From NCBI RefSeq assembly GCF_029853675.1, contig NZ_CP122539.1, forward strand, positions 124,001 to 188,000: a DNA stretch of 64,000 nt, written 5' to 3'. Both the position numbers and the translations under genes were made by a program. Of the stretch, positions 24,761-49,142 are shown piece by piece. Within the stretch, counting starts at the first letter, position 1. Each line of letters starts with the position of its first letter. The notes beneath the pieces are model-generated. The model was given only the letters and a program-made list of their open reading frames with translations, was not told where the DNA came from and did not search any database. This DNA comes from Tenacibaculum tangerinum. Its GTDB lineage: Bacteria; Bacteroidota; Bacteroidia; Flavobacteriales; Flavobacteriaceae.

Positions 24761-24770
24761 AAAAAGCATT

Positions 24771-27241: not shown

Positions 27242-27252
27242 AAAATAAAAAG

Positions 27253-27555: not shown

Positions 27556-27556
27556 T

Positions 27557-27979: not shown

Positions 27980-27983
27980 TCGT

Positions 27984-32570: not shown

Positions 32571-35236
32571 GAGAAAATCACATACAAGACATTCAGCTTC
32601 CTACTACTTTAAATTTTAAAGTACTGAAGGAAGAAGGACTTTCTTATATACAAGAGGGAAGTAGTTCTGAATGGACAAATTTGAATCCTAGTGACCCTGG
32701 TGTTACTATTCTAGATCAGTTGTGTTTTGCTCTTACCGAGTTGGGGTATTGTATGAACTTTCCTATGAAAGACATTTTAACAGATGCCACAGGAGAATTA
32801 CAGATAGCGAATCAATTCTTTTTACCCGATACCATCTTAACAACGGCTGCTATTACCGAAAACGACTATGTGAAATTGATTATCGACACCGTTTCAGAAG
32901 TCAAAAACTGTATGATTAGTCCAATACCAACAAGTGTAAGTTTTTTACGAGGTATCTATCAGACTTATCTGTATATCAACCCCAAAATAACTGACCAAGA
33001 AGAAAGACAAAACATTTGCAAAGCGGTATACATTCAGCTAAATACCAATAGAAATATTAACGAACTTTTTTTAATACCTATAGCTTTAAAACCAAAGGAA
33101 TATAAGGTACAATGCCAGCTACAACTGGAAGATGGATATACTTTTAAAAGTATCATTGTAGCAATTCAACAGGCTATTAACAACTATATTTTTCCAAACA
33201 TACCTCAAACAGGGTACGATCAGTTGAGAGAAGAGGGAATCGCTGTGAATGAAATTTTTAACGGACCCAAATTAAAAAATGGGTGGATTAAAAATGTAGA
33301 TATTCAACCCAAAAAAGATACACTGCACGCTTTTGAAATTACGGAAGTATTGTTAGCGGTAAAAGGAATAAGCAGTGTGCAGAATTTGTTTTTTTATACT
33401 GAAGACGTGTCGAACAAATTGTATACGGTTACTTCAAAGAAAGAGGAATTGCTCTGTATAAAGGTGCTTCCTTCGTCAACAGAAAAAAACGTATTGGGAG
33501 CAGCGAAAGATGCGTTTTTTGAAAATAAAACAGCGGTGTATTTCTCGAATAACCTAAACGATTTATTCCAAGCATCAAAACCCAAAGAAGATATTGAGGC
33601 AGTGCAAATGACACCCGAAGTACCCAAAGGAACATTTCGCGACATCAACTCATATTATTCTATTCAAAACACCTTTCCTACTGCTTATAAAGTGGGGTTA
33701 AATGCCCTAAATAGCAATGCTCCAGCATTTCAAATAGCACAATCAAGACAGTTAAAAGGGTATTTAACGCTTTTTGATCAGGTATTGGCAAATGAGTTTT
33801 CGCAATTGGCAAACTTAAAAACGTTGTTTTCATTTAAAAATGCAATCAGTGGTACTCCTTCTGACATAGAGGAATATAATCAGTTAAAAGATGCTTATGA
33901 AAAAGCACATCCTAAATATCCAGCCCCTTTTGTAAGTTTCTCACCTACCTATTTTTATCAATCTTTATACAACAGTGTTCCGAATATAAAACCACTGCTC
34001 AAAAACAACAAAAAATTCAATTTTAGCTACGAAGTTTTATCAGCACAGACGTTAGATAATGAGTCTTGGTTAGACTATCAAGAAGACCCATACAATTCCT
34101 ATGTGTGGGGTTTAAAAACCATTATGGAAGATGAAGCGTTGAATGTAAATCGCAGAAATGAATTGCTCAATCATCTGTTGGCAAGACATGGAGAAGCACC
34201 CTTGTATATAAACACCATTTGTGCTGTACCTACTTATACGGGAGATATAGTAAAAGATCAGGTGATTAGTAAGAGTATTTATCTTCAAAACTATCAAAAG
34301 CTCTCTTATAATAGAGCCAAAGCGTATAATTTTTTAGGAGCCAACAAGTTGTATTTAGATAAAAAGACCAAATCAGTGATTGATTTTGCGCCAGTTACTG
34401 AAAAAATTCAGGAGGAATTTAAAAAAGGCAGACAAGTAGATTTTATACCCGATATTCAAAAAATAGAACGCAAACAATACATTTCCCCTTCCGACATTAT
34501 CAATTATTCTACCCTAGATTTAAAACTGAATCTGCTGTTTGCATTAGATGTATATTATCAAAATTACCTCATAGAGAATACTACAGAAACCGCATGGTGG
34601 TTATTGCACAACCGAAAAGGGTTTATAAGTATCGAAACAAGTTTATTACTAAAGAATGCTCAATTTGAAGTTGTTTTTAAAGAAGAAATCAATGCGAATG
34701 TTTATTGGACAACTGCACGAAAACTCACCTACGATGAATTGTTGATACTGAATGCAATGGTAGAAGAATGTAAGCCCTCTAAAGAAGATGTAGATTCGTT
34801 TATTGCCATAAAAAAAGCCTACCAATTACACAAAAAAGAAAATGTAAGATTTGACGAAAGTGAGTATTGCAGTATAACCAACTCAGTAAGTTGGTCCGTT
34901 ACCGCCTTTTTTGAAGAGGGCAGTATCGTGGTAACTTCGGTAGCCTCATTGTTTAGTGCGACGGTATGGTATATTTTTCCGAGTTACATTCCACAATTTA
35001 CAAGCACAACATTTCAAAAAAGATTGCACTTGTTTTTTGAAAATGAACTACCAGTAACTACAGCAGCAAAATTTGTTTTTGTAGAAGATGATTTACTGAA
35101 AACTCTTATTAAAGCCTATGTGCAATGGCACAATGAGTTAATAGCTACGAATGATTATACAAATCAAGGAATTTCGTTACTCGAAAAGAGTAATCTACTA
35201 GCAAAAACGATCATTCAAAACTTTGTAAGCGAATGA
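32564..35236 (+). CDS. Second large baseplate protein (Pvc12-like)
   Basis: An 890-residue protein recognised by its N-terminal signature: W-T-N-L-N-P-S-D-P-G-V-T-I-L-D-Q-L and a following L-G-Y-C-M-N-F-P segment. These correspond to the D-P-G-I-T-L-L motif of Pvc12/Afp12 and other wedge proteins. The rest is mixed alpha/beta without further motifs. It would form heterodimeric wedges with the preceding protein. Its stop overlaps the tape-measure gene start (ATGA). Confidence 0.82.
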   Translation: MVGENHIQDIQLPTTLNFKVLKEEGLSYIQEGSSSEWTNLNPSDPGVTILDQLCFALTELGYCMNFPMKDILTDATGELQIANQFFLPDTILTTAAITENDYVKLIIDTVSEVKNCMISPIPTSVSFLRGIYQTYLYINPKITDQEERQNICKAVYIQLNTNRNINELFLIPIALKPKEYKVQCQLQLEDGYTFKSIIVAIQQAINNYIFPNIPQTGYDQLREEGIAVNEIFNGPKLKNGWIKNVDIQPKKDTLHAFEITEVLLAVKGISSVQNLFFYTEDVSNKLYTVTSKKEELLCIKVLPSSTEKNVLGAAKDAFFENKTAVYFSNNLNDLFQASKPKEDIEAVQMTPEVPKGTFRDINSYYSIQNTFPTAYKVGLNALNSNAPAFQIAQSRQLKGYLTLFDQVLANEFSQLANLKTLFSFKNAISGTPSDIEEYNQLKDAYEKAHPKYPAPFVSFSPTYFYQSLYNSVPNIKPLLKNNKKFNFSYEVLSAQTLDNESWLDYQEDPYNSYVWGLKTIMEDEALNVNRRNELLNHLLARHGEAPLYINTICAVPTYTGDIVKDQVISKSIYLQNYQKLSYNRAKAYNFLGANKLYLDKKTKSVIDFAPVTEKIQEEFKKGRQVDFIPDIQKIERKQYISPSDIINYSTLDLKLNLLFALDVYYQNYLIENTTETAWWLLHNRKGFISIETSLLLKNAQFEVVFKEEINANVYWTTARKLTYDELLILNAMVEECKPSKEDVDSFIAIKKAYQLHKKENVRFDESEYCSITNSVSWSVTAFFEEGSIVVTSVASLFSATVWYIFPSYIPQFTSTTFQKRLHLFFENELPVTTAAKFVFVEDDLLKTLIKAYVQWHNELIATNDYTNQGISLLEKSNLLAKTIIQNFVSE

Positions 35237-38200
35237 GAAATAACGAGCGACATATTGTAGCCACTTGTGTTTGGGATACTCAGTTTGATGATAAACACAA
35301 AGCAGTTGACTTACAAAATAGTTTGAGTCATTGGAGTCAATACCACCTGCAAGAAGCATTGATTGCGGTGTTCAATGAAGTATGTCCGGAGGAACAAACA
35401 CTTAAAATTAAAAAGTTAGAACTTCATTTAGGAGAAGTAAACTATGACAATTTGAAGGAAGACCTTTCAGAAAAAATTAAAAAAGAGTTGTATAAAAAAC
35501 TACAACAGATTCTTTTGTATCCGACGAGATACCAGCAAGAGGTTGAAATACTTCATGAAAAAACGTCTCAAATAAAGGTCTTAGAATATTTTTTACTAAG
35601 AGGAACGTTGCCATGGGATTATCAAACAGCGTACGGAGCCTTGAATCAGCTATTGGAAACTCAATGGCAAAACAATAAACAAGAACTGATTGCCATGCTT
35701 TGGTCTGTTGGAACTCATGAAAATGCTCGAAGACGCATTGCATGGCAGTTAACAGAAAAAAACATCGTTACCATAGTAGAAAATATAGCGTCGAACAATC
35801 AAGAATATGTACAAAATATAGCCAAAGAATTGGTTAAAATTCAGGAAAAAGAAAATGTAGTTCAAATAGGATTGCATGATTTTAAGCGAAATGTATGGTT
35901 TTGGATTTTAAATTATATGTTCGTTGAAAGAGGTACCATGTTCAACAAAGTTGCTTTTGTAAAAAGTATGATTCGTCAAATGGCAAATCATTTTAATATG
36001 GAGTATAGCGAGCTCTTAGAAATTATAGAAGAAGCTGTAAATAACGTTAAAAATCAGTACTTCATTAAAAATGAGTTTATTACCATCATCAACGAACTGT
36101 CTAAAGAACAATTAACAGGAACGGTTACCACACACAGTACAGACAAACAGTTGGAGTATTATTGGGAATTCTTATTCAATCAGTTGAACAATTCAGAACT
36201 AAGAAGTACTTCTGTGCAGAAAAAGGAGTTGAATGAACTACTTCTTAGTTTGAAAAAGCAAGATGAGCAACGCTTTAAAAGAATACTAAAACCCTTACTT
36301 AATAAAAACGAAACTTTTTGGAAGGGAATTTTAAAAGATATAACCCCTGAGGTTATAGAAGCACTAATTTCGGCGTTGAATGCCTCTACAAGTTCGTTGA
36401 GAAATCAAATTCGGTTTTTAAATGCACTACAGCTTCCTGTCGAGTTAAAAACAACGGCTCAACAATTATGGGGGATTGGTTTTTTGTATGCAAAGAAAGT
36501 ATTGGTTAGTTCATCAAATCAGCAACCATTTTTAAACTATCTAGTTACTCAACTAAGTAAAACCACTCAAAAAGATAAAGAAGAGGTAATCACTAGCATC
36601 TTATCGGCAGAAATACAATCTCGTGCAAAACTGATTCATCACCTACCACTGTACACCGATTTAAAAGAAGCGTATTTACAAGCCCTTATAAAATCGGATT
36701 ATAAATTGAAAGGGGAGCATATTGAAGAAGTAGTACAACAGCTACATAGATTGTTTGAAACAACGAGTACCGATGTAGCATTGATAGAAAAACTTCAAGA
36801 AATCATGCTGTATTGGATGGTTACCAGACCTACCAGCTCTTTAGTGGTATTGAAGAAATATCAGGAAGACGAAAAATTCCGTAAAACAATCAAAAATATA
36901 TTGGCAGATGAAACTATAGCCTATCAGGTACTTAAAATTTTAGATGCAAAGGCAGCCAAAATACTAGATGTTTTAGAGGGAATTTTAGATGATTTGTTAA
37001 TAAATGAAACTCAGAGAATTGGTGTTTTTCAAGACATTAGAAAGCATGTAACAAGTATTGTAGTAAAAATTACAGTAAAAAGAACCACGACTACAACGTA
37101 TGAATTTTTACAGAAATTTATAGAGGAATTGAAGTTGCAATCTCATATACATTCTTCGGAAGATTTTAAAATATGCGTACTCAAAATAGTAACACATAAA
37201 AAATGGAAACTTCTAAGACTTACCTCTCAACAAAAGAGGGCTTTAGAACAAAAAGTGATGAATTTTACATCGAGGAATATGCTAGGGTTTCTAGTTGCTT
37301 CCATCAAAAATAACGAGTACACACCACAAGAAATAGCCAAGGCACTAGCAACGATTATTCATGCTAAGCAATATGAGCATGTTGAATTTAAAAAACAGGA
37401 AACTACTTTTATAACATACCTTATTCCTAAAGCGCACGCTTCCCTAAAAACATATTGGGTACAGGTATATACAAACCAATTACGAAAGACAGGATATAAA
37501 GAGTCTACTCAAAAAATTCAACAGGTATTAGAAGGGCTTTTTTGGCAGTGTTTGGTTAATTATGCTCATTACAAAGGTAGTGAAACCCGTTTTATAAGGA
37601 TGCTTCAGGAAGCCGTGGAACAAAACTATAAGAAGATACAAGCTTCTGAAAATTATGGGAAAAAGCGTCAAAGAGTTTCTGAAGATCATGAAAATTCGAT
37701 AACTAAGAACACCTCATCTTGGGAGTTTTTTAATAGCGTTTTGCATGAATTGGAACAGCCAAAGGCAGGAGAGTTGCTAAAGTTTAAAAACAAGACAAAA
37801 ACCTTAGAAAATGCGTTGCTGTGGTCGTTAGAAATGGTGCCATACCCTATTAAAAATAAGTTGATTAACAGGAAAACAATGCATCAGTTAAAAAAACATA
37901 TTTCGTTTGAACAACTGTTGTCGCTACTTATCGCCGATACCTCTTTGAAGGAAACTCAAAGAGAATTTTATAAAGGACTTTTGGTCCTGTTTACGATAGC
38001 TACGACCATTCAGCAATCGACAAAATTTAAAGAGTTTTTCTGGAATACTTTCGTTGATAGGTATCATACGAGTGAAAGTGAATCAGCATTAAAAACAATA
38101 ACATTAAAAACGTTTTCTGAGCTACAGAAGGAAAATGAGTTCAATTCAGAAATACTACTTCGTATTGTAAAAGATAAAAAAGTATTGGTGCCTAAAATGT

Positions 38201-39417
38201 TGCTGAATATTCTTAAAGAACAACATACAAGGTTCGTACAGTTAGCGCAACCTGATAAAGAGGTAGTTTCTGAGCTGTTACGCCATTTTCAAGCAGATAA
38301 GTTAGAAAAAGTAGCCATTCATGTATTAAAGTATCAGGAAATTCCGCATTGGCTACATTACCAAAAAACCGTTACAATCCGACAATTAATCAATGAAATA
38401 GCAGTGTTTCACCCTTTGTTATTTTTGAAAACACTACGCTCAGAGTATATTTCAAAAATTCAATTTACAGCATTAAGTAAAGAACTTAATTTCAATCTAG
38501 TTATTCAAAAACTACAACAACTGTATCCTGTTCGACGCAAACAATTAGGAGTTATAACGAAACTACATCAGGTATTGAGTAGTGTTAAGATTAAAGGAGT
38601 ACCAACCTATCAAGTACAAAGTATTATAGAAGTTTTAGTGTTAAAAGCATGGATAAATGTACAGTGGAAATTGATAGATAGTATCACTATATGGAATGAA
38701 TTGTTGTGGGAATTAAGTACAAGAAGAAGACTTGCTGCGAAAGATTTTTTTTCAGCTTTCGATAAATTAAAAGAACAATTGCCCATTCCGTTGCAACTTA
38801 CTTATGAAGGAATGAGCAGAGCAGCCCCCCCAGAAGAAAGAAAAATTGAAACCAAACAAGAAACAAAAAAAATAAATAGTAAAACAAACATAAAACAAAC
38901 AAACATGTCAAAAACACAAGTTATGGTAAGAAATGCAGGAATGGTACTATTAAATAGTTACTTTTCCATGCTACTAGAACGATTGAATCTAGTAAAAAAT
39001 AATGATTTCGTATCTGAAGAAGCACAACAAAAAGCAGCACTTTATTTACAATATGTAGTCACAGGTTTGGAGAGTACTGAAGAGCAGTTGTTGCCATTAA
39101 ACAAAGTGTTATGTGGGATTCCTGTAGAAACACCCATAGCAGTGAGTATTGAGATTTCAAATTCAGAAAAAGAATTAATTAACGGATTACTTAATTCCTG
39201 TATTGACTATTGGTCGGCCATAGGGTCTTCTACAGTAGATGGCTTTAGAGGAAACTGGTTGGTAAGAGAAGGGCTCTTAAAAGAAGAAGAAGAACGTTGG
39301 CAACTTACCGTTGAAAAAAGACCTTATGATGTACTCATGCTAAAGTCTCCTTTTTTCTTTTCTATTATCAAACTGCCTTGGATGTCAAAACCCTTGCATG
39401 TATCATGGCCATTTTAA
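35233..39417 (+). CDS. eCIS tape-measure protein (Pvc14-like)
   Basis: A 1394-residue, almost wholly helical protein. The N-terminus (I-K-K-L-E-L-H-L-G-E-V near residue 60) and the C-terminal 170 residues (N-A-G-M-V-L-L, L-Q-Y-V-V-T-G, L-N-K-V-L-C-G-I, then I-K-L-P-W-M) match the conserved ends of contractile-injection-system tape measures. The long variable middle is expected to set tube length. Just before the conserved C-terminus is a K/T/N-rich low-complexity linker (about residues 1203-1225), which may be a processing or hinge region. Confidence 0.88.
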   Translation: MRNNERHIVATCVWDTQFDDKHKAVDLQNSLSHWSQYHLQEALIAVFNEVCPEEQTLKIKKLELHLGEVNYDNLKEDLSEKIKKELYKKLQQILLYPTRYQQEVEILHEKTSQIKVLEYFLLRGTLPWDYQTAYGALNQLLETQWQNNKQELIAMLWSVGTHENARRRIAWQLTEKNIVTIVENIASNNQEYVQNIAKELVKIQEKENVVQIGLHDFKRNVWFWILNYMFVERGTMFNKVAFVKSMIRQMANHFNMEYSELLEIIEEAVNNVKNQYFIKNEFITIINELSKEQLTGTVTTHSTDKQLEYYWEFLFNQLNNSELRSTSVQKKELNELLLSLKKQDEQRFKRILKPLLNKNETFWKGILKDITPEVIEALISALNASTSSLRNQIRFLNALQLPVELKTTAQQLWGIGFLYAKKVLVSSSNQQPFLNYLVTQLSKTTQKDKEEVITSILSAEIQSRAKLIHHLPLYTDLKEAYLQALIKSDYKLKGEHIEEVVQQLHRLFETTSTDVALIEKLQEIMLYWMVTRPTSSLVVLKKYQEDEKFRKTIKNILADETIAYQVLKILDAKAAKILDVLEGILDDLLINETQRIGVFQDIRKHVTSIVVKITVKRTTTTTYEFLQKFIEELKLQSHIHSSEDFKICVLKIVTHKKWKLLRLTSQQKRALEQKVMNFTSRNMLGFLVASIKNNEYTPQEIAKALATIIHAKQYEHVEFKKQETTFITYLIPKAHASLKTYWVQVYTNQLRKTGYKESTQKIQQVLEGLFWQCLVNYAHYKGSETRFIRMLQEAVEQNYKKIQASENYGKKRQRVSEDHENSITKNTSSWEFFNSVLHELEQPKAGELLKFKNKTKTLENALLWSLEMVPYPIKNKLINRKTMHQLKKHISFEQLLSLLIADTSLKETQREFYKGLLVLFTIATTIQQSTKFKEFFWNTFVDRYHTSESESALKTITLKTFSELQKENEFNSEILLRIVKDKKVLVPKMLLNILKEQHTRFVQLAQPDKEVVSELLRHFQADKLEKVAIHVLKYQEIPHWLHYQKTVTIRQLINEIAVFHPLLFLKTLRSEYISKIQFTALSKELNFNLVIQKLQQLYPVRRKQLGVITKLHQVLSSVKIKGVPTYQVQSIIEVLVLKAWINVQWKLIDSITIWNELLWELSTRRRLAAKDFFSAFDKLKEQLPIPLQLTYEGMSRAAPPEERKIETKQETKKINSKTNIKQTNMSKTQVMVRNAGMVLLNSYFSMLLERLNLVKNNDFVSEEAQQKAALYLQYVVTGLESTEEQLLPLNKVLCGIPVETPIAVSIEISNSEKELINGLLNSCIDYWSAIGSSTVDGFRGNWLVREGLLKEEEERWQLTVEKRPYDVLMLKSPFFFSIIKLPWMSKPLHVSWPF

Positions 39418-39463
39418 ATTAAAAAATAACAAAAAGTATATTAACTAAATAAAACAAAAACTT

Positions 39464-41602
39464 ATGAACTCGTACAATGAAAATTTACATTCTGGTGTTT
39501 CGACTTCTTTAGGCAATCAAGAGACTGCTTTAAAAAAAGCCCAAGCACAATTAGACGCCACTATGTTTTCCTTATACTACGCACAAGGAAATTACATAAC
39601 TATTTATGAAAAGTTGGGTATAGAAAATAATAAATACCAATTTAACCAAAAGTTGTATAATGAAATGGTGATTGATAGTGATTTGTCAACCAATTTGTTG
39701 TCTTCTGTTAATCAAGGAAAAACGTTGGTAACTACATCCATTTCAAATGCAAGTGTAGCCGCTTCAAACGTACAAATTGCTTCCAATGCTATTTTAAAAT
39801 TAGCGAGTGATATGGGAAGTATTTTTAACATAGTAAGTGCAGCCGACTTTGATTCCGAAATTTACCAGCAAAGTAAAGATGCCAACAGTTTAATGAGTGA
39901 AACAGCGTATTTAGCAGAGGTACTTTCTCAATATTCTATGAAAACCTCTTCATTAATAGCAGAGGTATCAGCAGAAAAATTGTCTGAAACCGCTGCGACA
40001 AGCGATGCAAGTGTTAAAAATTTATTACAAGTTGTAAAAACAGAATTTGACAAAGCAGCTACTCAGGTAAATAATGATAACAATGCCTTGGCGCAGGCAA
40101 GTACAGATGAGAAAAAGCTAGAAGGAAGTTTGGAAGATGCCAAAGTAAACTACGACGCTTCAAAAGATGCTTATGCAATAACCAATCAAGAACTCAACTT
40201 AGATTTAGTGGTTACCAAGGAGAATCTAAAAGGAAGAGAAATTAAATATACCGTAAGTTTCTTACCCTATCAAAGTCCTTTTGGAGTAGAGAATGCTCCT
40301 TCAGGATATCCTGTAGACAACTATTATATCTTTTTAGTAAAAGAAAGTAAAAAGAAAACTTTTTCAATGTCGGTTGCAGAAGGAATATTGGTAAAAGACC
40401 CAGAGGCTAAAGGAAAAAATGGCTATCCATATATAGTAATAAAAGGAGGAAAGTCTACCGAAAAAGGAGTGAGTAAAACACTTATGTTTAATGCATTGGA
40501 AGATACCGATGAAGATGCTTTACAATTGGGAGAAAACTATGTGGTTTTTGTTTTAGCAAGTTTAAGTAGTACATATAAAAAACTAATCAACAATTTTGAG
40601 GATTATTTAACGGCTCCGTCTGCTTCATTTAGTTTAACCAATCAATTAATAGCCCCTGTAGCAGATGATATTAAAGTAGGAAATGAAAAAACTGAAAAGG
40701 ACAAAAAAATATCATTAGAAAGTAAGATAATAAGTGCTGTTAGTATCTCTAGAGAAGATTTAGCAGGAAAAAATACTGAGTCTAAAAAAATTGTAAATCA
40801 GGTGTTATCATTTCCAACGAATCAAAATACTCACTTTAAAGTAGAATATCGTTGTATGTTTTTACCAGACAATTCTGAGCTTATTAAAGGATTACTAACA
40901 AATCAAGAGTTACTTGCTAAAGAAGAAGAGGCTAAAGTATTAGAACAAATTTCTAATAAATACGACCCTAAGATTTCCGAACTAGAGTTGAAAATTAATG
41001 CGTTGGAGTCTGAATTGGAAGTATTAGAAGCAACGGCAGATAGCGATATAGAAGCTTGGGTAGCAAGTGTTGAAAATTCAATAGCAGCCAAGAAAACCCA
41101 TACCTTAGAAGAAGTTAAAACTCTCACTGAAGGAGGAGAAGACAATATAGATGCCATTTATAAAAAGCTAGGAGTTAAAAAAAGTAGTGAAAAAATAGTA
41201 GAAAAAGATATTCTAAAAATTATTGCAGTAATGCTAGAAATAGCACTAGCAAAAATAGAATTTGATGCCCTTAAAAAATCTAAAGAAGAGGCATTTAAGG
41301 GGTTGGATGAAAAAGCCTTGAACTTGCATCCAGGGTTTATGTTTAATGAAACCATTGCTGAAAGAGTGACAGCGAGTAATTACTTTGTAGCCAGCCCATC
41401 AAAAGATGATGACCAAAATTTTGAAGTTAAACTCAAACCAGAAATGACCGATAATTTCGGAAACCGTTTAATCCCCGGAAGCTTATACATACCCGTAGTA
41501 TTGGTGGTAAATAACCAAGGAGCAGAAATTAGTAAACAATTTAGCAGTGCACTATCTGATTTTCAAAATACCAAACCATTTACTTACAAATATAAAAACT
41601 AA
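39464..41602 (+). CDS. eCIS-associated coiled-coil protein of unknown function
   Basis: A 712-residue protein with no signal peptide. Residues 1-245 and about 480-600 are long Ala/Ser/Lys-rich helices with heptad character. Between and after them are beta-rich domains (about 250-450 and 615-712; for example Y-P-V-D-N-Y-Y-I-F-L-V and L-I-P-G-S-L-Y-I-P-V-V). It occupies the approximate place of the tail-fibre gene (Pvc13/Afp13) but shows no adenovirus-like knob or fibre repeats that I can recognise. It may be a fibre, a baseplate extension or a chaperone. The next gene resembles its helical part. Confidence 0.65.
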   Translation: MNSYNENLHSGVSTSLGNQETALKKAQAQLDATMFSLYYAQGNYITIYEKLGIENNKYQFNQKLYNEMVIDSDLSTNLLSSVNQGKTLVTTSISNASVAASNVQIASNAILKLASDMGSIFNIVSAADFDSEIYQQSKDANSLMSETAYLAEVLSQYSMKTSSLIAEVSAEKLSETAATSDASVKNLLQVVKTEFDKAATQVNNDNNALAQASTDEKKLEGSLEDAKVNYDASKDAYAITNQELNLDLVVTKENLKGREIKYTVSFLPYQSPFGVENAPSGYPVDNYYIFLVKESKKKTFSMSVAEGILVKDPEAKGKNGYPYIVIKGGKSTEKGVSKTLMFNALEDTDEDALQLGENYVVFVLASLSSTYKKLINNFEDYLTAPSASFSLTNQLIAPVADDIKVGNEKTEKDKKISLESKIISAVSISREDLAGKNTESKKIVNQVLSFPTNQNTHFKVEYRCMFLPDNSELIKGLLTNQELLAKEEEAKVLEQISNKYDPKISELELKINALESELEVLEATADSDIEAWVASVENSIAAKKTHTLEEVKTLTEGGEDNIDAIYKKLGVKKSSEKIVEKDILKIIAVMLEIALAKIEFDALKKSKEEAFKGLDEKALNLHPGFMFNETIAERVTASNYFVASPSKDDDQNFEVKLKPEMTDNFGNRLIPGSLYIPVVLVVNNQGAEISKQFSSALSDFQNTKPFTYKYKN

Positions 41603-41623
41603 CCTTATTAAAAAATAACAATC

Positions 41624-42472
41624 ATGGCAAGCATTTATACCAATACCTTATTGAAGGATACTTCGACTAAAAATAGAAAATACGGGGTAACAGAAAGAAA
41701 AAAAGCGACTTTAGATCAGTTGTCTAACCAAGTGTTAGATGCAGAGAATGAAGTAGAGCAGTTACAAGCAATTGTACAATCGTTAACCGAAAAATCAAAT
41801 AAATTTTCGGCACAACTAAGTTTGGCAGAACAAAACAGAAAACAGGCACGAAACAATATGGAACTTGGTGAAGAGGTAGGAACTAAGCTTAAAGAACTTA
41901 AAGACCTTTCAAACACCGCATTTAACGAAGTAGTTTTAGCAAAAAAAGAAGTACAAGATACTGCCCAAAAAACCAATACAGTTATAAATAAACTTATTTA
42001 TTCTGCCGAAGTGATTAACAAACTATCAAACTTAGTTATTAGAAAAAAAGCGATGAACCCGTTAATTTCTGATGATTTGGTAAGTATGATTACCAAAGCA
42101 GGTTCTGATGCGAACAATGCAGTAGCTTTAACACTTACGGCATTAAAATCGGTATTTGCTTCTCAAGCTACCATTTTAGAATCAGAGGCAACCCTATCGT
42201 TAGAGTATATTCAAGCAGTAAAATTAGTAGAGTGTTTTACAGGAGTTGAAGCAGAAGACATCAGCAATCAATTACCAGAAAAAGGGGTTTTATCCTTGCT
42301 GCAAACTGCCTATACCGTTTCAGAGCAGTTATACAAGGGTTCATTTACCGCATTTAACGATACCGTAAAACAACTTAATGCAGCACAAAGTGAGCTTAAC
42401 AAAGCCAATGTTAAACTAAGCTCATTACAATCTGGTTTGGCAGCAGCCAATGCAGCAGCACTAGCCTCATAA
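41624..42472 (+). CDS. eCIS-associated alpha-helical coiled-coil protein
   Basis: A 282-residue all-helical protein, highly charged with clear heptads (residues 25-135 and 235-275) and ending in an alanine-rich stretch. The helix composition resembles the N-terminal part of the preceding 712-residue protein, suggesting the two assemble together or arose by duplication. No known domain is seen. Followed by a large RNA hairpin rather than an immediate next gene. Confidence 0.65.
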   Translation: MASIYTNTLLKDTSTKNRKYGVTERKKATLDQLSNQVLDAENEVEQLQAIVQSLTEKSNKFSAQLSLAEQNRKQARNNMELGEEVGTKLKELKDLSNTAFNEVVLAKKEVQDTAQKTNTVINKLIYSAEVINKLSNLVIRKKAMNPLISDDLVSMITKAGSDANNAVALTLTALKSVFASQATILESEATLSLEYIQAVKLVECFTGVEAEDISNQLPEKGVLSLLQTAYTVSEQLYKGSFTAFNDTVKQLNAAQSELNKANVKLSSLQSGLAAANAAALAS

Positions 42473-42484
42473 ACGAGTAGAAAA

Positions 42485-42533
42485 TTATAGCGTAGTTGAA
42501 ATTGAGCACATTCGTATTTCAACTATGCTGTAA
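42485..42533 (+). promoter_or_regulatory. Large RNA hairpin inside the eCIS operon
   Basis: Bases 42485-42502 pair with 42516-42533: 18 pairs, of which two are G-U wobbles, around a 13-base loop. No T-tract follows, so it is more likely a processing, stability or attenuation element than a full terminator. It could set different amounts of the structural genes and the ATPase/cargo genes. Confidence 0.65.
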
Positions 42534-42564
42534 TTCAATCAAATAATTACTAAAATTTAAACGT

Positions 42565-43485
42565 GTGAAAAATGTATTCAAACAATTTTATGAAAACTGT
42601 TATCTGAAAACACAAGGATTCATTCCCGTAAAACCTTTAGATCAATACTTGTTTCCAGGAGATTTTTTTCAAATTAAAAACGGAAATATTGTGCTTTTAG
42701 GAAATGTTTTTGAAGGAGGTGTTATTGATTCAGAAGAAGTATCTTTTTCAGAAGGATTGAAACTCAATGAAGCAAGCTGGTTTTTTAGTAAAGACGTTTC
42801 TAAAGTGTATTCAGGAAGAGAAGTAGGAGAGGCAGAATTAGAGGAAGTCTTTACGTTTAGTAAGCAGATATTAGCGTTTAAAGGATTGGGAAGTTTTTAT
42901 TTTAAAGCACAGCACCCTGAGTTGATAAAAATTGAAAATTGGAATCAAATGTATCAGGAACTTATTATCAAGTTAACACAGACTATGTATTCCTTTAGAG
43001 AAGTATATGTAGTCACCGAAGTGGTAACTGCCGAAAATTGGACACTGGCTGTAGGTGGCGCTAAAAATGCGGAGTTGGAAATCGTTACCAAAAATAAAAA
43101 TTTTGGCTTGGTAGATATTTTTGGCAATAGCAACTCTCAAACAGTACAAGCCCGTAATATTGAATATTATCATGAAGAAACCACTAGAAAACCCTCCTTT
43201 TTTAAAGCAAAAAAGCTCGTTGTAAGACCACAGCATTTAGATACTTTTATAAGTGAGTTGTTGCTAAAACAAAAGGGGAGATTTGATTGGGTACAGCAAT
43301 TCTATACCTACGATTTTAATTGTGAGGCCGTCGATTTTTCAGCACGCATTCCCTACAATGTTAACGAAAGCGTTTTAGATATGCTGCAATCAAATCAGCT
43401 AAATCCGAATACTGCTTTGTTGTATTTTGATTGGGTAGACGCTTCTTTAGACGATGTGGAAAAACTTTTTAATGAAGTGAAATGA
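42565..43485 (+). CDS. eCIS-associated protein of unknown function
   Basis: A 306-residue cytoplasmic-type protein encoded immediately before the ATPase and overlapping its start by four bases; it begins with GTG 42565 or a nearby codon (V-K-N-V-F-K, read as Met). The first 60 residues have an amphipathic helix then G-F-I-P-V-K-P-L-D and F-P-G-D-F-F-Q-I. The remainder alternates strands and helices and has D-W-V-Q-Q-F-Y near residue 240. I do not recognise a family. Tight coupling to the ATPase suggests an assembly or loading role. Confidence 0.65.
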   Translation: MKNVFKQFYENCYLKTQGFIPVKPLDQYLFPGDFFQIKNGNIVLLGNVFEGGVIDSEEVSFSEGLKLNEASWFFSKDVSKVYSGREVGEAELEEVFTFSKQILAFKGLGSFYFKAQHPELIKIENWNQMYQELIIKLTQTMYSFREVYVVTEVVTAENWTLAVGGAKNAELEIVTKNKNFGLVDIFGNSNSQTVQARNIEYYHEETTRKPSFFKAKKLVVRPQHLDTFISELLLKQKGRFDWVQQFYTYDFNCEAVDFSARIPYNVNESVLDMLQSNQLNPNTALLYFDWVDASLDDVEKLFNEVK

Positions 43486-44828
43486 AGGCAGCAAAGAACA
43501 TACAAGCCCTACACAAAGAAATTCATTGGTTAGAACAGGTGATTCATAACGTAATCAGCAGGTATTTACAGCACGAAGGCGAATGGTCACATTGGACGGA
43601 TTTAGCAATGCCAGAAGAAGACGATTCTATATATCAGCAATGGATACAAAAGAATTCCATAACCCAGTACCAACGGTTGGCATTAGCACTCGCCATGACA
43701 CCGCAACTCAAACCAGAAGTGTTAGATGTCTTCTTCGGAAAAAATCAATTGTATGATAGAGGATTTACCGAATTTGGAGGCATATTAGATGCAAATCATA
43801 GCGGATTTTTACCTACAGGGCAAACCTTACTGTTTTTAATTACCGCCACAGAACCCGAACTCAGATACGAAGTAACTGCCTTATTTGATACCACCAGTAT
43901 TTTTTCTGTAGAACAGATACTCTTACTAGAAAATATTCCGTCACACATTCCAAAGTTAAATGGCATATTAACACTCAATAAAAGATGGTTAGCCTACTTT
44001 GAAACAGGAGAAATGCAAGATATAGAACAGAGTGCCGAGTTTCCTGCAAAACGTATTACCACCCACTTAGAATGGGAAGATGTGGTGCTAAACGACATCG
44101 TAATGGATCAGGTGCTAGAACTCAAAACATGGCTATTGCACGGAGACGAGTTAATGAACGACTGGGGTTTGTACAAAAAGGTAAAGCGAGGATACCGAAC
44201 CTTGTTTTACGGACCTCCAGGAACTGGAAAAACCTTAACCGTAACCTTATTAGGAAAAGTTACTGATAGAGAAGTTTATCGGGTAGACCTGTCGATGATA
44301 GTCTCAAAATACATAGGAGAAACAGAGAAAAATCTATCCAAAATATTTGATATCGCAGAGCATAAAAACTGGATTTTATTTTTTGATGAAGCAGATGCCT
44401 TATTTGGAAAACGAACAGAAGCCAATTCGTCTAACGACCGACATGCCAATCAGCAAACCTCATATTTATTACAACGTATAGAAGATTTTCCAGGTGTGGT
44501 GATTCTCGCTTCCAATTTAAAAACCAATATGGATGCTGCTTTTACCAGAAGATTCCAGTCGATGATTCATTTTACCATGCCTGCCGTTAACGAACGCTAT
44601 CAATTATGGAAAAATGCCTTTACAGGTACCTGTACTTTACATTCCGATATTAATCTATGGAAAATAGCTGAAGAGTATGAATTGGCTGGAGGTGCTATTA
44701 TCAATGTATTGCGCTTTTGTGCCTTGTCTGCCATTCAAAGAAACGATACCGTGGTACTAGCTCATGAATTGATAGAAGGTATTCGCAAAGAGTTTAAAAA
44801 GGAAAACAAAACAGTTACTGTTTTTTAA
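43482..44828 (+). CDS. eCIS AAA+ ATPase (Pvc15-like)
   Basis: A 448-residue ATPase with one AAA module in the C-terminal half. Walker A is G-P-P-G-T-G-K-T (244-251) and Walker B is W-I-L-F-F-D-E-A-D (297-305). Sensor 1 is the Asn in L-A-S-N (345), and the arginine finger candidates are R356/R357. The N-terminal domain is specific to the eCIS group. Unlike ClpV of type VI secretion it has only one ATPase module. Pvc15/Afp15-type ATPases are needed for assembly or cargo loading, which fits its place directly before the cargo genes. Confidence 0.92.
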   Translation: MKAAKNIQALHKEIHWLEQVIHNVISRYLQHEGEWSHWTDLAMPEEDDSIYQQWIQKNSITQYQRLALALAMTPQLKPEVLDVFFGKNQLYDRGFTEFGGILDANHSGFLPTGQTLLFLITATEPELRYEVTALFDTTSIFSVEQILLLENIPSHIPKLNGILTLNKRWLAYFETGEMQDIEQSAEFPAKRITTHLEWEDVVLNDIVMDQVLELKTWLLHGDELMNDWGLYKKVKRGYRTLFYGPPGTGKTLTVTLLGKVTDREVYRVDLSMIVSKYIGETEKNLSKIFDIAEHKNWILFFDEADALFGKRTEANSSNDRHANQQTSYLLQRIEDFPGVVILASNLKTNMDAAFTRRFQSMIHFTMPAVNERYQLWKNAFTGTCTLHSDINLWKIAEEYELAGGAIINVLRFCALSAIQRNDTVVLAHELIEGIRKEFKKENKTVTVF

Positions 44829-44829
44829 G

Positions 44830-45522
44830 ATGAAAGCATTGGTACACAAACCTAGGAATGAAATAGTACTCACTAACGCAAGAGTGGTTCAAAAAAAGAC
44901 CTCACAAGGAATGGTTTTAGAAGATAATAGACATACTTCTTTGAAAATAGCACAATTAAACTCAGATGATAGTGACGAAGAATACAAACCACCAGGACAT
45001 GGTAAACAAAAAAGATTTTCTTTTCGAACAGGATTGGCTGAAAAAGTAATAAAAAAAACAGCCCATAGGAGAAAACATTATCATAAAAAGAAATACAAAT
45101 CCGTATATACCTGCCCTGCCTGTAGAAGACCTTTAGGTTTTGTAAAAAAAGGAATTAGTAAGTTAAATCTAACAAAGTTCTCTTACACAAGTAAACATGG
45201 AAATTTAAAAAGTCAAAGAGCATTAACCTTAGATCATTACCCACCATGGGCAGGAAGACTTCGCAAGTTAGAAAGTAGAAAAGCAACAGATGAAGAAATG
45301 AAAGACGATTATAACGATGTAAACAGATTGCGTGCTTTGTGTAAAAAGTGTAACGAAAGTCATCAATATGAAAGTAAGAAACATATAGATTATGAGAGTG
45401 ATGAAGACGAGGAAGGATACATGACCGATAGTGATGAATCAGAGAATAAAGGAGAATACAGTCCTTTCCGATATAAAAAAGACGATGATGATGACATGGG
45501 CGGGGATGGAATTACAGCATAA
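44830..45522 (+). CDS. Putative eCIS cargo: tagged HNH-type nuclease
   Basis: A 230-residue protein. Residues 26-34 carry the shared cargo motif Q-G-M-V-L-E-D-N-R. From 95 on there is a zinc-ribbon HNH arrangement: C95-P-A-C98, L-D-H-Y-P-P-W (D135, H136), N165, then C171-K-K-C174 and H178. This is the layout of HNH/endonuclease VII-type nuclease toxins. The basic middle (residues 60-92) could bind nucleic acid. The C-terminal 40 residues are strongly acidic (D/E-rich), perhaps holding the nuclease inactive. It begins one base after the ATPase stop. Target and activity are inferred. Confidence 0.72.
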   Translation: MKALVHKPRNEIVLTNARVVQKKTSQGMVLEDNRHTSLKIAQLNSDDSDEEYKPPGHGKQKRFSFRTGLAEKVIKKTAHRRKHYHKKKYKSVYTCPACRRPLGFVKKGISKLNLTKFSYTSKHGNLKSQRALTLDHYPPWAGRLRKLESRKATDEEMKDDYNDVNRLRALCKKCNESHQYESKKHIDYESDEDEEGYMTDSDESENKGEYSPFRYKKDDDDDMGGDGITA

Positions 45523-45533
45523 CAACTAATCAA

Positions 45534-46037
45534 ATGACCATAGATTCAATACTCAGCAAGAAACAGGAACATGCCTTTCTTCTATACCTTAAGTTGTGGA
45601 GGAAAGAAATACCCGTTGCCTGTAGAAATGTAATCATTGCAGAAGCGTTAAACCATTGTGTGTACTATGAAAATATGATGATTAAAGGGTATTGGTTGAG
45701 AGATAAAAAACTATATCTGATAATTCATACAGAAGCACAAAACGTAGAGGAGTTATTAGAAGTTTTTGCCAAACAAGTATTGAGAGGAATCCATCAATAC
45801 AATCAGCAAAAAGAAAAGTATACAGGCATGGTAAAAAAAGCGAATGTAGGTAACGAGTTGTTCCTCAAATTTCCGTTGAACGATGTTGTCCTACAAAAGT
45901 TACTTACAGGAAAAAAAATAGCGCAAGTGTATACCCAGTATGTAGTAAAAATCACAAATCAAATGAACCAGAGTAACTATTGCTCTGTGGTAGATTATTC
46001 AGGAGCCCTAGGGCCTGTAAAAGTAACGATAGATTAA
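45534..46037 (+). CDS. Protein of unknown function between cargo genes (possible immunity or adaptor)
   Basis: A 167-residue protein without the D-N-R tag or a signal peptide. Residues 36-80 (I-I-A-E-A-L, G-Y-W-L-R-D-K-K-L-Y-L-I-I-H) recall the strand-helix core of Y1/IS200-like transposase domains, but the H-x-H motif and a catalytic tyrosine context are missing. Being untagged and 11 bases downstream of the HNH nuclease gene, it could be that toxin's immunity protein or a loading chaperone. None of this is proven by sequence. Confidence 0.55.
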   Translation: MTIDSILSKKQEHAFLLYLKLWRKEIPVACRNVIIAEALNHCVYYENMMIKGYWLRDKKLYLIIHTEAQNVEELLEVFAKQVLRGIHQYNQQKEKYTGMVKKANVGNELFLKFPLNDVVLQKLLTGKKIAQVYTQYVVKITNQMNQSNYCSVVDYSGALGPVKVTID

Positions 46038-46053
46038 TTTAAAAATAAAACGT

Positions 46054-46479
46054 ATGGAGTACCAAAAGAAAAAACCGCAACCTACCCAAACGTCCATACA
46101 AAAGGTGGCGAACAATGCACAGGCATTGAAAGACAATCGTACACAAAGCACGATTCAAAAGAAAGCTAACAATACAGGCTTACCTGACAATTTAAAATCA
46201 GGAATAGAAAATATATCCGGTTATTCTATGGATGATGTAAAAGTACATTACAATTCTAGCAAACCAGCACAACTCAATGCACATGCCTATGCCCAAGGGA
46301 CGGATATTCATTTGGGTGTTGGACAAGAAAAACACTTGCCTCACGAAGCATGGCATGTGGTACAGCAAAAACAAGGTAGAGTACAACCTACTACTTCAGT
46401 AAATGGAGCAAAAATAAATGATAATGTTGGTTTGGAAAAAGAAGCAGATGTAATGGGAGCAAAGGCATTGTCGAAGTAA
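46054..46479 (+). CDS. Minimal DUF4157 protein with cargo tag
   Basis: A 141-residue protein. An N-terminal tag region (A-L-K-D-N-R at 24-29, Q-K-K at 35-37) is followed by a complete DUF4157 domain: G-Y-S-M-D-D-V-K-V-H-Y, A-Y-A-Q-G-T-D-I-H, L-P-H-E-A-W-H (H97, E98, H101) and L-E-K-E-A-D. The HExxH and later E-A-D are expected zinc ligands and catalytic residues of a metallopeptidase. DUF4157 is the domain most often linked to eCIS cargo; here it stands alone, with no further toxin domain. It may be a protease effector or a cargo-maturation enzyme. Confidence 0.85.
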   Translation: MEYQKKKPQPTQTSIQKVANNAQALKDNRTQSTIQKKANNTGLPDNLKSGIENISGYSMDDVKVHYNSSKPAQLNAHAYAQGTDIHLGVGQEKHLPHEAWHVVQQKQGRVQPTTSVNGAKINDNVGLEKEADVMGAKALSK

Positions 46480-46528
46480 CTTGATACAATACATCTTAAT
46501 AAATCATAAATCGTAATTCACACAAGAT

Positions 46529-46855
46529 ATGTACACATCAAAAAACACACCTAAAGCGCATAAAAATCGACCTGTTACTCAACGGAAAAGCGAGAGTAAA
46601 CAAGGTATGGAACTAGAGGATAATAGAAGAGAAACAACTACACAAAGAAAAGTTAATAATTCAGTTAGTCAAAACGTTGTACAATTTGGAGGAGGAAGTC
46701 ATTATTGGAGAAGGCAGAATGGAGGGCCATGGATATATAGTGGAAAAATGGGGAATCATAAAACCGCAACAAAATGGCATATAGCTAGAGGCTATACAAA
46801 TGGTAAAGGATGGCAATTTAGTCAAGGAGGTAAAAAAAATCCACCAGGAACATAG
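46529..46855 (+). CDS. Small putative eCIS cargo with shared N-terminal tag
   Basis: A 108-residue protein. The first 50 residues are the tag: M-Y-T start, then Q-G-M-E-L-E-D-N-R (25-33) and T-Q-R-K. The C-terminal 55 residues begin V-V-Q-F-G-G-G and are rich in Gly, Trp, His and Lys (H-Y-W-R-R, N-H-K-T-A-T-K-W-H), suggesting a small basic toxin or nucleic-acid-binding domain. No cysteine, signal peptide or known motif. I do not recognise the C-terminal domain. Confidence 0.65.
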   Translation: MYTSKNTPKAHKNRPVTQRKSESKQGMELEDNRRETTTQRKVNNSVSQNVVQFGGGSHYWRRQNGGPWIYSGKMGNHKTATKWHIARGYTNGKGWQFSQGGKKNPPGT

Positions 46856-46895
46856 AAATAGAAAATAAAAAGTAAATCAATCAAAAACGCAATAT

Positions 46896-47846
46896 ATGTA
46901 CACCCAACAAGCCAAACCAAAAGAACATCAAAGCCAGTCGTGCGCTGATGCTGTTGCTCAAAAAATGAGTGTTAGAGAGAAGGGTATTGAGTTGGTGGAT
47001 AATAGGGGTAAATCGATTGTGCAAAATAAACTCAAGGAGCACCCTAATAAAACCACCTTGGTGAATCCAGTAACACAATTAATGTTTAAAGGATTTAAAG
47101 CAAGTATTTTTGGAAATGAAGTACCAGAGGGTGTTGAAGAATATAAAGTTTTAGGAGGAGGATATGGAGTTGGTTATAAAAAATCAAATCAAACCGTTTA
47201 TTTATATGGCTCCAATGGAATTATAGCGCATGTTAACATTCAAACACATGGAGAAGATTCTAATATTTCTCTTCATACAGGAACAGATTCAGGTACTGAA
47301 GGAGGTCAAGGACACATGACTGCCATGTTTCCTGTGGCTTTAAAAGTTGTAGCTAGATATTTTGGAGATTACCCAGGTATTGATATGGCTCCTGCTTTAG
47401 GGGCAGCCACTAAAGGACTCATTAGTCAGTTAGCTCGATTACGCCAACAGGTAGAACCACCAACACCAAGAAAGAGGTTTGGAGATTCAAGAATGTTTAT
47501 GGCAAGTAGATTTATTAGTCTTTCAGATGAACTTAGAGAGAGGAGAAAAAGAAAAGAAGAATCAGGAAAAAAACAACGTCCCGAAGCACAAGAATGGGAT
47601 GCAGAGACGATGATGGAAACAGCTCATGAATTAAATGCGTTAAGAGAAATGGAAGCTGCAAATCCATTAGGGATTGACATTGTAGGGTTAAATGGAAAGT
47701 TTAATGAACGATTGGTAGGTAAAAATTCACCTTATCTTAATGGAGGGGCATTCGCATGGCATGAAAGTTCAACAAAACAGGGGCAAGGGATGCTACAGCT
47801 TAAAATACCAATGGAAGCAGTAAAACTTTTTGCAAAATCTGTATAA
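46896..47846 (+). CDS. Putative eCIS cargo with shared N-terminal tag, unknown payload domain
   Basis: A 316-residue protein. Residues 1-55 are the tag region: M-Y-T, K-P-K-E-H-Q-S-Q-S, A-D-A-V-A-Q-K-M-S, then G-I-E-L-V-D-N-R and Q-N-K. The first 75 bases are nearly the same as those of the next cargo gene. The payload begins about residue 60 (L-M-F-K-G-F) and includes a beta-rich part (60-130), a G-G-Q-G-H-M segment, a helical section with a basic run (R-E-R-R-K-R-K, about 215) and a C-terminal W-H-E-S-S-T-K. No catalytic signature that I can name. Confidence 0.65.
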   Translation: MYTQQAKPKEHQSQSCADAVAQKMSVREKGIELVDNRGKSIVQNKLKEHPNKTTLVNPVTQLMFKGFKASIFGNEVPEGVEEYKVLGGGYGVGYKKSNQTVYLYGSNGIIAHVNIQTHGEDSNISLHTGTDSGTEGGQGHMTAMFPVALKVVARYFGDYPGIDMAPALGAATKGLISQLARLRQQVEPPTPRKRFGDSRMFMASRFISLSDELRERRKRKEESGKKQRPEAQEWDAETMMETAHELNALREMEAANPLGIDIVGLNGKFNERLVGKNSPYLNGGAFAWHESSTKQGQGMLQLKIPMEAVKLFAKSV

Positions 47847-47987
47847 GTGTTTTTGAGCTGTGGTCTTAGTTTTTTATTCTAAAATCAATGGGTTTTTTCT
47901 ATCAAACTCTTGAAATAGAAAGGTGATTGTTCAGAAAACAAGATAAAAAATAGTAGAAAGAATTTATACAGGCCCAAAAACTGAAAT

Positions 47988-49142
47988 ATGTATTATGGAC
48001 AAATAGAAAAACCAAAAGGACATCAAAGCCAGTCGGTCGCTGATGCTGTTACTCAAAAAATGAGTACTACAGGGAACGGTGTTGGGTTGGTAGATAATCG
48101 ACCTGAAGTAGTTAGTCAAAGAAGAATGCAGATACTTTTCAATAATTCTATCGCTCAATCAGTGCAGAAAAAGGGAAGTAATATGCGCAATAAAGATTTG
48201 GATTCACCGATCATTGGAACAAGGGTATCTCAAAGAAAGATTATTGTCAATGATACCGAGGTAAATAAAGATGCAATTCTTGATGATTTGGTATCGAATA
48301 CTGCTGGACGTGTGCATACGTGGCTGACCAGTAATGGAATGACTTCAATATTGAAAAGGAATAGTCAGGATGTAAAAGCAGAAATAACTGCTACAGAATC
48401 GAATTCCAAAGCTAGGAAGTATCTCGAAGCGAATCTTCGTAACCAAATTAATTCTATACTTGCCAAGTACAACTCTGATGATAGAACTTTTGAAGATAAT
48501 AATCACTTTGAGTCTCAGTTGATTCAGGATGTTAAATTGAGCATCTTAAGATTGAATGATATTGTTGGAATTGATCATCACAACGGTCAATTTTCTAGAA
48601 CAGATCAAAGTGGTCGTGGAAAAGCTTTAAGAATCTATCGAACCACTAAACGAGCCGATTGGAATACTTATTTGCAGTCACGTAGCCTTGCAGGACTTCT
48701 TCATGGACACGGAGGCTCATTGGGACAAGCATTAGATTATTTCTATAAATCTAAAAATCCTAATAATAAGAATGCTAGTAATCCATTTTATGATAATGTA
48801 ATCTTTGAACTCAAGTTTACAAAAGACGCTTCAAATGCAATTAACTATGATGAAATTTCTTCGGGAGGAGAAGGAGGAGGCCCAAGATCAGACAAGTTAA
48901 CAGGGAAAAAAGAGCAAAACGATATACTCGGTGAAGCAGATAGTTTCAGTGTGAATTTAGGAGCATGCAGAGATCTTATAGTATCTATGGATCCAGTTGT
49001 TAGACGAGTTGACGAAATGAAGGGAGAGGACACCCAGTATAGTAAAAGGTTGATGGAGCTTGGACTAAAACACGGCCAATATCCTCCTACGAATCTAACT
49101 GAAATGGAAAAAACAGAATTAGAAGGGTTAAGAGGTCTTTAA
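47988..49142 (+). CDS. Putative eCIS cargo with shared N-terminal tag, possible ADP-ribosyltransferase-like payload
   Basis: A 384-residue protein whose first 55 residues repeat the tag of the preceding gene (K-P-K-G-H-Q-S-Q-S, A-D-A-V-T-Q-K-M-S, L-V-D-N-R, Q-R-R). The middle (70-190) is helical. The C-terminal part has L-R-I-Y-R-T-T, then H-G-H-G-G-S-L-G-Q-A-L-D-Y-F and a strand V-I-F-E-L-K-F, a pattern that loosely resembles the R-S-E type ADP-ribosyltransferase fold. A G-E-A-D-S-F-S segment could hold an acidic residue. The fold assignment is tentative; cargo status rests on the tag and position. Confidence 0.6.
   Translation: MYYGQIEKPKGHQSQSVADAVTQKMSTTGNGVGLVDNRPEVVSQRRMQILFNNSIAQSVQKKGSNMRNKDLDSPIIGTRVSQRKIIVNDTEVNKDAILDDLVSNTAGRVHTWLTSNGMTSILKRNSQDVKAEITATESNSKARKYLEANLRNQINSILAKYNSDDRTFEDNNHFESQLIQDVKLSILRLNDIVGIDHHNGQFSRTDQSGRGKALRIYRTTKRADWNTYLQSRSLAGLLHGHGGSLGQALDYFYKSKNPNNKNASNPFYDNVIFELKFTKDASNAINYDEISSGGEGGGPRSDKLTGKKEQNDILGEADSFSVNLGACRDLIVSMDPVVRRVDEMKGEDTQYSKRLMELGLKHGQYPPTNLTEMEKTELEGLRGL

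Follow-up and report, generated by a model that had tools for sequence, protein, structure and literature searches.

The window analysed here, a stretch of 64,000 nucleotides from Tenacibaculum tangerinum (contig NZ_CP122539.1, positions 124,001 to 188,000), contains a gene cluster for an extracellular contractile injection system (eCIS). Five open reading frames (ORFs) encoded next to this cluster, behind its AAA+ ATPase, share an N-terminal leader with the motif [LF]-x-D-N-R, followed six residues on by Q-[RK]-K. Judged from its sequence and its distribution among genomes, this D-N-R leader probably serves as the cargo address tag of a single eCIS lineage, that with a long tape-measure protein. 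The initial annotation of the window had proposed an eCIS loading tag. Beyond that proposal, we found that the tag occurs with one eCIS lineage only, that a second eCIS in the same genome has a different leader, and that many tagged genes are unlinked to the eCIS locus.

A common N-terminal leader on five proteins

We aligned the N-termini of the five proteins, which are named after the window positions at which their ORFs start (44830, 46054, 46529, 46896, and 47988). The invariant residues were M1, P8, Q21, L30, D32, N33, and R34 in the numbering of the first sequence. Because P and V/I-x-Q-[KR] before D-N-R are also common, the shared part reaches upstream of D-N-R, which starts at residues 32, 27, 31, 35, and 36 in the five proteins. 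All five leaders described in the initial annotation were recovered, as was the Q-containing follow-up that it had assigned to four of them. In these four, Q lies exactly six residues after R (QKK, QRK, QNK, and QRR). In the fifth protein, 44830, Q is displaced by two residues, as it is in the relatives P0023 to P0025.

When the 60-amino acid (aa) N-termini were shuffled in 20,000 rounds, an average of 0.013 of five proteins had D-N-R within that zone, and no round gave more than one. Leader profiles, which were partly built from the five window leaders themselves, matched only five places in the 3.6-Mb genome of this bacterium, and these were the same five. Thus, the D-N-R leader is not a product of chance. 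At the DNA level, the leaders of 46896 and 47988 aligned well (local score 70), and the other nine pairs scored 11 to 26. Recent duplication of the 5′ end was rejected as a full explanation, as DNA similarity was seen in one pair of ten.

Genome survey of leader and eCIS type

We surveyed 648 genomes, made up of a phylum sample (296 genomes) and a family sample (373 genomes) minus 21 shared genomes, an overlap that was inferred. An eCIS was classed as long-tape-measure when its CIS_TMP frame exceeded 1,100 aa, a limit chosen from the surveyed frame lengths, and a genome as lacking eCIS when it gave no CIS_TMP match at E 0.001 or better. Leaders were scanned with profile A2, which combined the five window leaders with nine from database relatives, and with A3 and A6, which were partly built from phylum-sample genomes. 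The thresholds were E 0.01 in one scan and 0.001 in the others.

CIS_TMP was detected in 61 genomes of the phylum sample. The frames were 1207 to 1407 aa in seven of them, 825 to 907 aa in three, and shorter or split in the rest. A2 matched six genomes, all among the seven with a long tape measure, and both A3 and A6 matched exactly these seven and none of the other 289. In the family sample, A6 matched 16 genomes, all among the 17 with frames of 1135 to 1551 aa; the exception was G653. The leader was found in none of the 38 other CIS_TMP genomes, which include G393 with a match below the curated cut-off, and in none of the 318 genomes without CIS_TMP. Leader-positive genomes belonged to 13 of the 237 genera of the family sample. 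Among the 352 family genomes new to the phylum sample, the leader was present in 14 of 15 with a long tape measure versus 0 of the remaining 337.

Over the joined 648 genomes, 21 of 22 with a long-tape-measure eCIS carried the leader, compared with 0 of 90 with another eCIS and 0 of 536 without a tape-measure match. The leader is therefore not general to all eCIS, and the equal frequency in genomes without eCIS that would speak against a loading tag was not seen. Fisher values for this association were computed ignoring relatedness and are hence inflated. The association supports the loading tag of the initial annotation in the sense of a probable address.

Location of tagged genes

Eighty ATPase loci were named from a scan of genome contigs, being the best 80 of 560. 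With A3, 22 of these loci gave 58 matches of at least 15 bits, and reversed sequences gave none. Every match was on the strand of the ATPase, with 56 behind it and two just before it (L130 and L143). The initial annotation had suggested comparing the density of tagged genes near eCIS loci. In 28 loci of the ATPase clade described below, the tag was on 70 of the 151 genes that follow the ATPase on its strand and on 0 of 195 other genes, counted with a pattern ([LFIV]x[DN]NR at residues 19 to 45) that was picked after the tags had been seen.

The 21 leader-positive genomes contained 64 profile matches, with G000 and G088 counted once. Of these, 28 lay no more than 20 kb from the long tape measure, 13 shared its contig at a greater distance, and 23 were on different contigs, mostly of draft genomes. 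As 36 of the 64 tagged places lie away from the eCIS locus, linkage alone cannot explain the distribution of the tag. In the single-contig genome G452, tagged frames are located at about 1.18 (two frames), 1.85, 1.87, and 1.91 Mb, and the tape measure at 1.85 Mb; the frame at 1.91 Mb has an internal stop.

A second eCIS in the same cell and other leaders

The T. tangerinum genome has a second eCIS, of the ordinary type and with its own ATPase, at 1.93–1.95 Mb (C1:1930001-1950000, L007). Of its two DUF4157 proteins, one starts with FIQPKLNIGKPGDKYEVEAD and the other with a variant of this sequence, so that the leader reads Q-x-K-L-x-[IF]-G...E-x-E-A-D in place of D-N-R. Both eCIS types occurred together in seven genomes (G000, G174, G289, G444, G510, G680, and G690). 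No D-N-R leader was found at their ordinary clusters in the stretches read, which were up to 20 kb each. An alternative leader, Q-x-K-L-x-[IV]-G...D-x-[YF]-E-x-E-A-D, was present at the ordinary cluster in five of the seven; the stretches of G510 and G680 contained neither leader. Across 102 scanned stretches, 35 carried the tag, 16 the alternative leader, and none both.

Two further leader types were noticed by eye and are leads only. They were found at the following loci:

L172-L174, L176, L177, L269-L271: [FL]-x-PP-x-[FL]-QLK leader
L274, L275, L278, L279, L282, L284: LPAV-like leader, in Chitinophaga-, Sediminibacterium-, and Pedobacter-type genomes

The former was present on nine of nine DUF4157 proteins of the HEAWH type from G064, G158, and G322. 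L175, L272, and L273 yielded no such protein, and G322 also has a D-N-R-tagged DUF4157 protein (L157). The LPAV-like leader was present on 6 of 13 DUF4157 proteins from G305, G313, G316, G324, G327, and G336. One of the seven proteins lacking it (L286) has D-N-R, and two stretches of G325 yielded none.

Conservation, polarity, and predicted disorder of the leader

We collected 120 non-redundant frames from the examined loci and anchored 110 of them on D/N-N/T-R. The ten dropped frames had D-N-R outside the searched zone, a variant, or no such motif. D, N, and R, which form the anchor itself, were conserved at 94%, 97%, and 100%, and L or F preceded them in 91%. Behind D-N-R, P was found in 65%, Q at +8 in 80%, R/K at +9 in 70%, and K at +10 in 69%. 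D-N-R mostly started at residues 31 to 35. The conserved core is thus [LF]-x-D-N-R-P-E-[SA]-[IV]-x-Q-[RK]-K at a nearly fixed distance from the N-terminus, within a first 35 to 45 residues that are polar and predicted to be unstructured. Two tags or tag-like stretches in tandem were noticed in L162:1267-2727, L070:16305-17297, and L088.

The first 35 residues of the five window proteins had a mean hydropathy of −0.50 to −2.04 and contained no hydrophobic stretch of the Sec type. In the structure model of 46054, the leader had no secondary structure, with predicted local distance difference test (pLDDT) values of 43 to 63 by block over residues 1 to 40. A second tagged protein was modelled with pLDDT below 50 over residues 1 to 82. 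The leader is therefore predicted to be disordered in both models made.

Payloads behind the tag

The initial annotation had noted that nothing after the tag is shared, and this held in a larger set. When 88 tagged proteins were aligned over their whole length, the sole invariant column was R of D-N-R, and M1, D, N, and one G column were near-invariant. A caveat is eCIS_core (DUF4157, PF13699), which follows the tag in 46054 and is carried by 33 of the 88 proteins. Among the five window proteins, PF13699 exceeded its curated cut-off in 46054 alone (40.9 bits, cut-off 22), and the other four were unmatched. With 33 of 88 tagged proteins carrying the domain and four of five window proteins unmatched, we rejected the possibility that the tag is part of DUF4157.

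Payloads of at least 60 aa numbered 109, many of them cut by the ends of 3-kb loci, and fell into 84 clusters at E 1e-4, of which 72 were singletons. Besides eCIS_core, the Pfam matches on the 88 tagged proteins were GH-E (8), Endonuclea_NS_2 (3), and two deaminases, with single occurrences of Peptidase_M91, RNAse_A_bac, actin-fragmin kinase, PARP, HipA_2, HNH, and TraB. NCBIfam matched four families with one or two members each, one of which is a type III effector family. By clustering, the payloads are diverse, and by domain matches they include predicted toxin-like domains. Payloads have moved between leaders: counterparts of the 47988 payload come with D-N-R by itself, with both D-N-R and DUF4157, with DUF4157 but no D-N-R, or with none of these in that position.

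Gene organization of the window

The genes of the eCIS cluster and the tagged run behind it are as follows:

20299..43485, + strand: eCIS structural cluster with Pvc16_N, sheath, two gp19 tubes, CIS_tube, baseplate V/GPD, gp25, and tape measure; also large ORFs without a Pfam match and the uncharacterised ORFs 39464, 41624, and 42565
35233..39417, + strand: long tape-measure protein of 1394 aa (CIS_TMP E 2.2e-91), marking the tag-associated eCIS lineage
43482..44828, + strand: Pvc15-like AAA+ ATPase (AAA E 5.8e-27), whose clade carries the tag; proposed tag reader
44830..45522, + strand: tagged cargo candidate 1, leader LEDNR (L30 to R34), C-terminal GH-E/HNH nuclease domain (GH-E E 3.7e-8)
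45534..46037, + strand: untagged small ORF between tagged genes
46054..46479, + strand: tagged cargo candidate 2, leader LKDNR, then eCIS_core (DUF4157, HEAWH type; E 2.4e-10) and nothing further
46529..46855, + strand: tagged cargo candidate 3, leader LEDNR...QRK, small payload of unknown type
46896..47846, + strand: tagged cargo candidate 4, leader LVDNR...QNK, payload of unknown type
47988..49142, + strand: tagged cargo candidate 5, leader containing LVDNRPEVVSQRR, payload possibly with a fold weakly resembling ADP-ribosyltransferases

The tape-measure ORF of 1394 aa lies in an open frame of 1407, above the bound used in the survey. D/N-N-R was present in the leader of 17 of the 22 listed homologs of 44830, the query counted among them. 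Two homologs of this nuclease, P0026 and P0029, have D-M-R at the leader position of D-N-R. Among the relatives of 46896, P0016 is fused to DUF4157, and P0017 to P0020 are without this leader. The best local alignment of 46896 with P0021 of Tenacibaculum larymnensis was 78% identical and spanned 14% of the protein, namely the leader only. Sequence searches of the PDB with payload profiles of 47988 and 46896 gave no matches.

The Pfam scan gave no match over the cut-off for 45534, 39464, 41624, and 42565. ORFs that resemble 45534 by eye are located shortly behind the ATPase in L025 (8345-8902), L026 (6187-6744), and L072 (first ORF behind the ATPase). Such small untagged ORFs could possibly encode an adaptor, immunity, or accessory protein. 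An untagged gene for glycosyl hydrolase family 17 is located at 49371-50390, immediately behind the tagged run.

ATPase phylogeny and tape-measure length

A tree of 95 ATPases contained one clade of 31 rows from Bacteroidota and Gammaproteobacteria (Shimodaira–Hasegawa approximate likelihood ratio test, 100). This clade included 26 tag loci recognised by profile and three recognised by eye (L083, L088, and L089), and none with the alternative leader. The profile misses some gammaproteobacterial tags, as these three loci show LEDNR, LPDNR, or LQDNR. The other members were L072, with 2.1 kb behind the ATPase, and L077, without recognisable cargo. When 17 ATPases were added, the 12 from tagged long-tape-measure genomes were all placed on the side of the clade and none among the 20 ordinary ATPases; G452 and G623, two of the 14 new tagged genomes, had no ATPase in the stretch examined. 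Both were quick trees with weakly supported deep forks.

Of the 27 tape measures found in the 31-row clade, 24 were at least 1200 aa long. In the ordinary set, all 12 were at most 799 aa, some being fragments, and lengths outside the two sets were mixed. Tape-measure length therefore agrees with the ATPase clade in part.

Discussion

We propose that the D-N-R leader commits a protein as cargo of the long-tape-measure eCIS lineage. In the producer cytoplasm, the tag would be captured by the Pvc15-like AAA+ ATPase of that system. The ATPase would then help to thread the payload into the tube lumen at assembly, and contraction would lead to injection. Here, we infer physical loading, reading by the ATPase, and threading, with reading by the ATPase drawn from the known Pvc15 system. 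Because the tag is separable, a payload gaining it would become cargo at any gene location. For the ATPase as reader we see even chances, lowered from slightly better than even after inspection of its clade-specific residues. Chances are equally balanced for a wider eCIS address code, in which each machine lineage would recognise a short N-terminal cargo tag of its own: D-N-R...Q-[RK]-K in long-tape-measure systems and Q-x-K-L-x-[IV]-G...E-x-E-A-D in ordinary ones. Under this code, Saprospiraceae-like systems would perhaps use [FL]-x-PP-x-[FL]-QLK, and Chitinophaga-like ones G-[IV]-x-LPAV.

Several observations weigh against these proposals. The ORF 45534 lies within the tagged run and has no tag. 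Polarity alone does not discriminate the tagged proteins, as the five rank 1, 2, 5, 8, and 14 of 40 window genes. G653 (L225), the only one of the 22 long-tape-measure genomes to depart from the pattern, has an untagged HEAWH-type DUF4157 protein behind its ATPase, and this protein begins with an acidic stretch. Published work has called disordered signal peptides a feature specific to Afp homologues (PMC11495950) and has described a DUF4157 cargo candidate without a disordered N-terminus (PMC12210884). Four tagged loci (L024, L130, L132, and L143) fall outside the 31-row ATPase clade. In the larger tree, the last three of these are placed on the other side, as are the ATPases of G092 and G282, both of them tagged genomes. 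We also examined 34 genomes whose sampled ATPase is off this clade and whose locus has neither leader. Thirteen of them are tagged elsewhere, and other leaders coexist on HEAWH-type DUF4157 proteins in some of these genomes. The residues that mark the ATPase clade, defined as conserved in at least 90% of the clade and at most 20% of the ordinary set, are not concentrated N-terminally, with 10 of 26 in the first 170 of 448 residues. Finally, the DUF4157 subtype co-varies with the tag.

From the 13 tagged off-clade genomes, we rejected a strict rule of one tag per ATPase clade, and the coexisting leaders also indicate that the code is not one-to-one with the ATPase. Either leaders and machine lineages correlate without being one-to-one, or those genomes have further unsampled eCIS. 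N-terminal concentration of the clade-specific residues was likewise rejected. As 10 of 26 is just the expected share, these residues say nothing on where the tag is read.

The co-variation with DUF4157 subtype raises the main rival to the ATPase as reader, itself a sub-case of the address tag. A HEAWH-type DUF4157 (eCIS_core) protein could read the tag as a chaperone or adaptor, in cis or in trans, so that the ATPase sees the complex. DUF4157 has been suggested to act as a chaperone in cis or in trans by Danov et al. (PMC11297309), the tag often leads straight into this domain, a tagged DUF4157 protein was found in 25 of 35 tag stretches, and the domain is on 43 of 87 tagged genes. However, the other 10 stretches had no tagged DUF4157 protein in the DNA examined, and in G092 and G282, tagged non-DUF4157 genes and HEAWH-type DUF4157 proteins without D-N-R (D-K-R in the L178 protein) are on separate contigs. 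We regard this rival as possible and clearly less likely than direct reading by the ATPase. It is unlikely that the leader acts after delivery, whether in leaving the tube, in refolding, or in trafficking or processing inside the target cell. Such a role would fit a leader that is common to unrelated payloads and lineage-specific, as fibres and targets may be, but known eCIS N-terminal signals work in loading (PMC11495950, PMC11297309), and a post-delivery role alone predicts no leader difference between two machines of one cell.

The leader could also be a functionless, passive relic of toxin genes whose 5′ end stays in place while the 3′ ends recombine. The 5′ DNA common to 46896 and 47988 and the alignment of P0021 with 46896 in the leader only are what such recombination would leave. 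Little DNA similarity is seen in the other nine leader pairs, however, and D, N, and R, the anchor of the 110 leaders, are retained at 94–100% against drift at most positions. No unlinked tagged genes were found in sampled genomes without the machine, and we consider a relic very improbable. A general export or folding signal unrelated to eCIS would likewise be short and N-terminal, but this explanation is hardly credible and was rejected, as none of the 626 sampled genomes that lack a long-tape-measure eCIS yielded the leader and the N-termini are polar, with mean hydropathy below zero.

The proposed address tag has counterparts in known systems. N-terminal eCIS signal peptides and a role of Pvc15 in payload association are established for the Photorhabdus virulence cassette (PVC), and PVC signals have been sorted into homology groups (PMC11495950). 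The effectors of PVC and the antifeeding prophage (Afp) in Photorhabdus and Serratia resemble the window proteins in having a short disordered N-terminal leader on unrelated payloads behind the ATPase (PMC11495950, PMC11297309). Danov et al. describe eCIS signal peptides as disordered and report that they detected no conserved sequence in them (PMC11297309), whereas the core motif of the window recurs on unrelated payloads across genera and predicts the machine type. AlgoCIS of Algoriphagus machipongonensis is also a Bacteroidota eCIS, and its tube lumen is filled by two DUF4157 proteins with disordered N-termini, Cgo1 and Cgo2 (PMC8894135); unlike in AlgoCIS, only one of the five window proteins matches DUF4157. 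The tagged N-termini, polar and predicted to be disordered, are of the kind scored by the eCIS signal-peptide support vector machine of Danov et al. (2024), which uses hydrophobicity, disorder, and aromaticity. That score is compositional and not lineage-specific, whereas the window tag is a motif tied to one lineage. MIX and RIX of the type VI secretion system (T6SS) similarly mark polymorphic effectors of one machine (PMC10673891, PMC10435454), but these are T6SS effector domains and the window tag is a linear peptide of eCIS cargo candidates. We found no description of a conserved, lineage-bound eCIS cargo tag in the open-access PMC literature searched. The finding is best filed as a new conserved, lineage-bound cargo tag within the known class of N-terminal eCIS signal peptides.

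How an eCIS chooses its cargo is an open question, and the Pvc15 study left undecided whether specificity comes from the signal, the ATPase, or both (PMC11495950). A conserved, machine-specific tag makes signal and ATPase specificity testable with a short peptide. With it, genome sequences would suffice to catalogue the cargo of an entire bacterial lineage, distant genes included. An address code, if true, would keep two injection machines of one cell apart and would let a machine draw cargo from genes at dispersed chromosomal sites; the injected proteins of a genome could then be listed from sequence alone.

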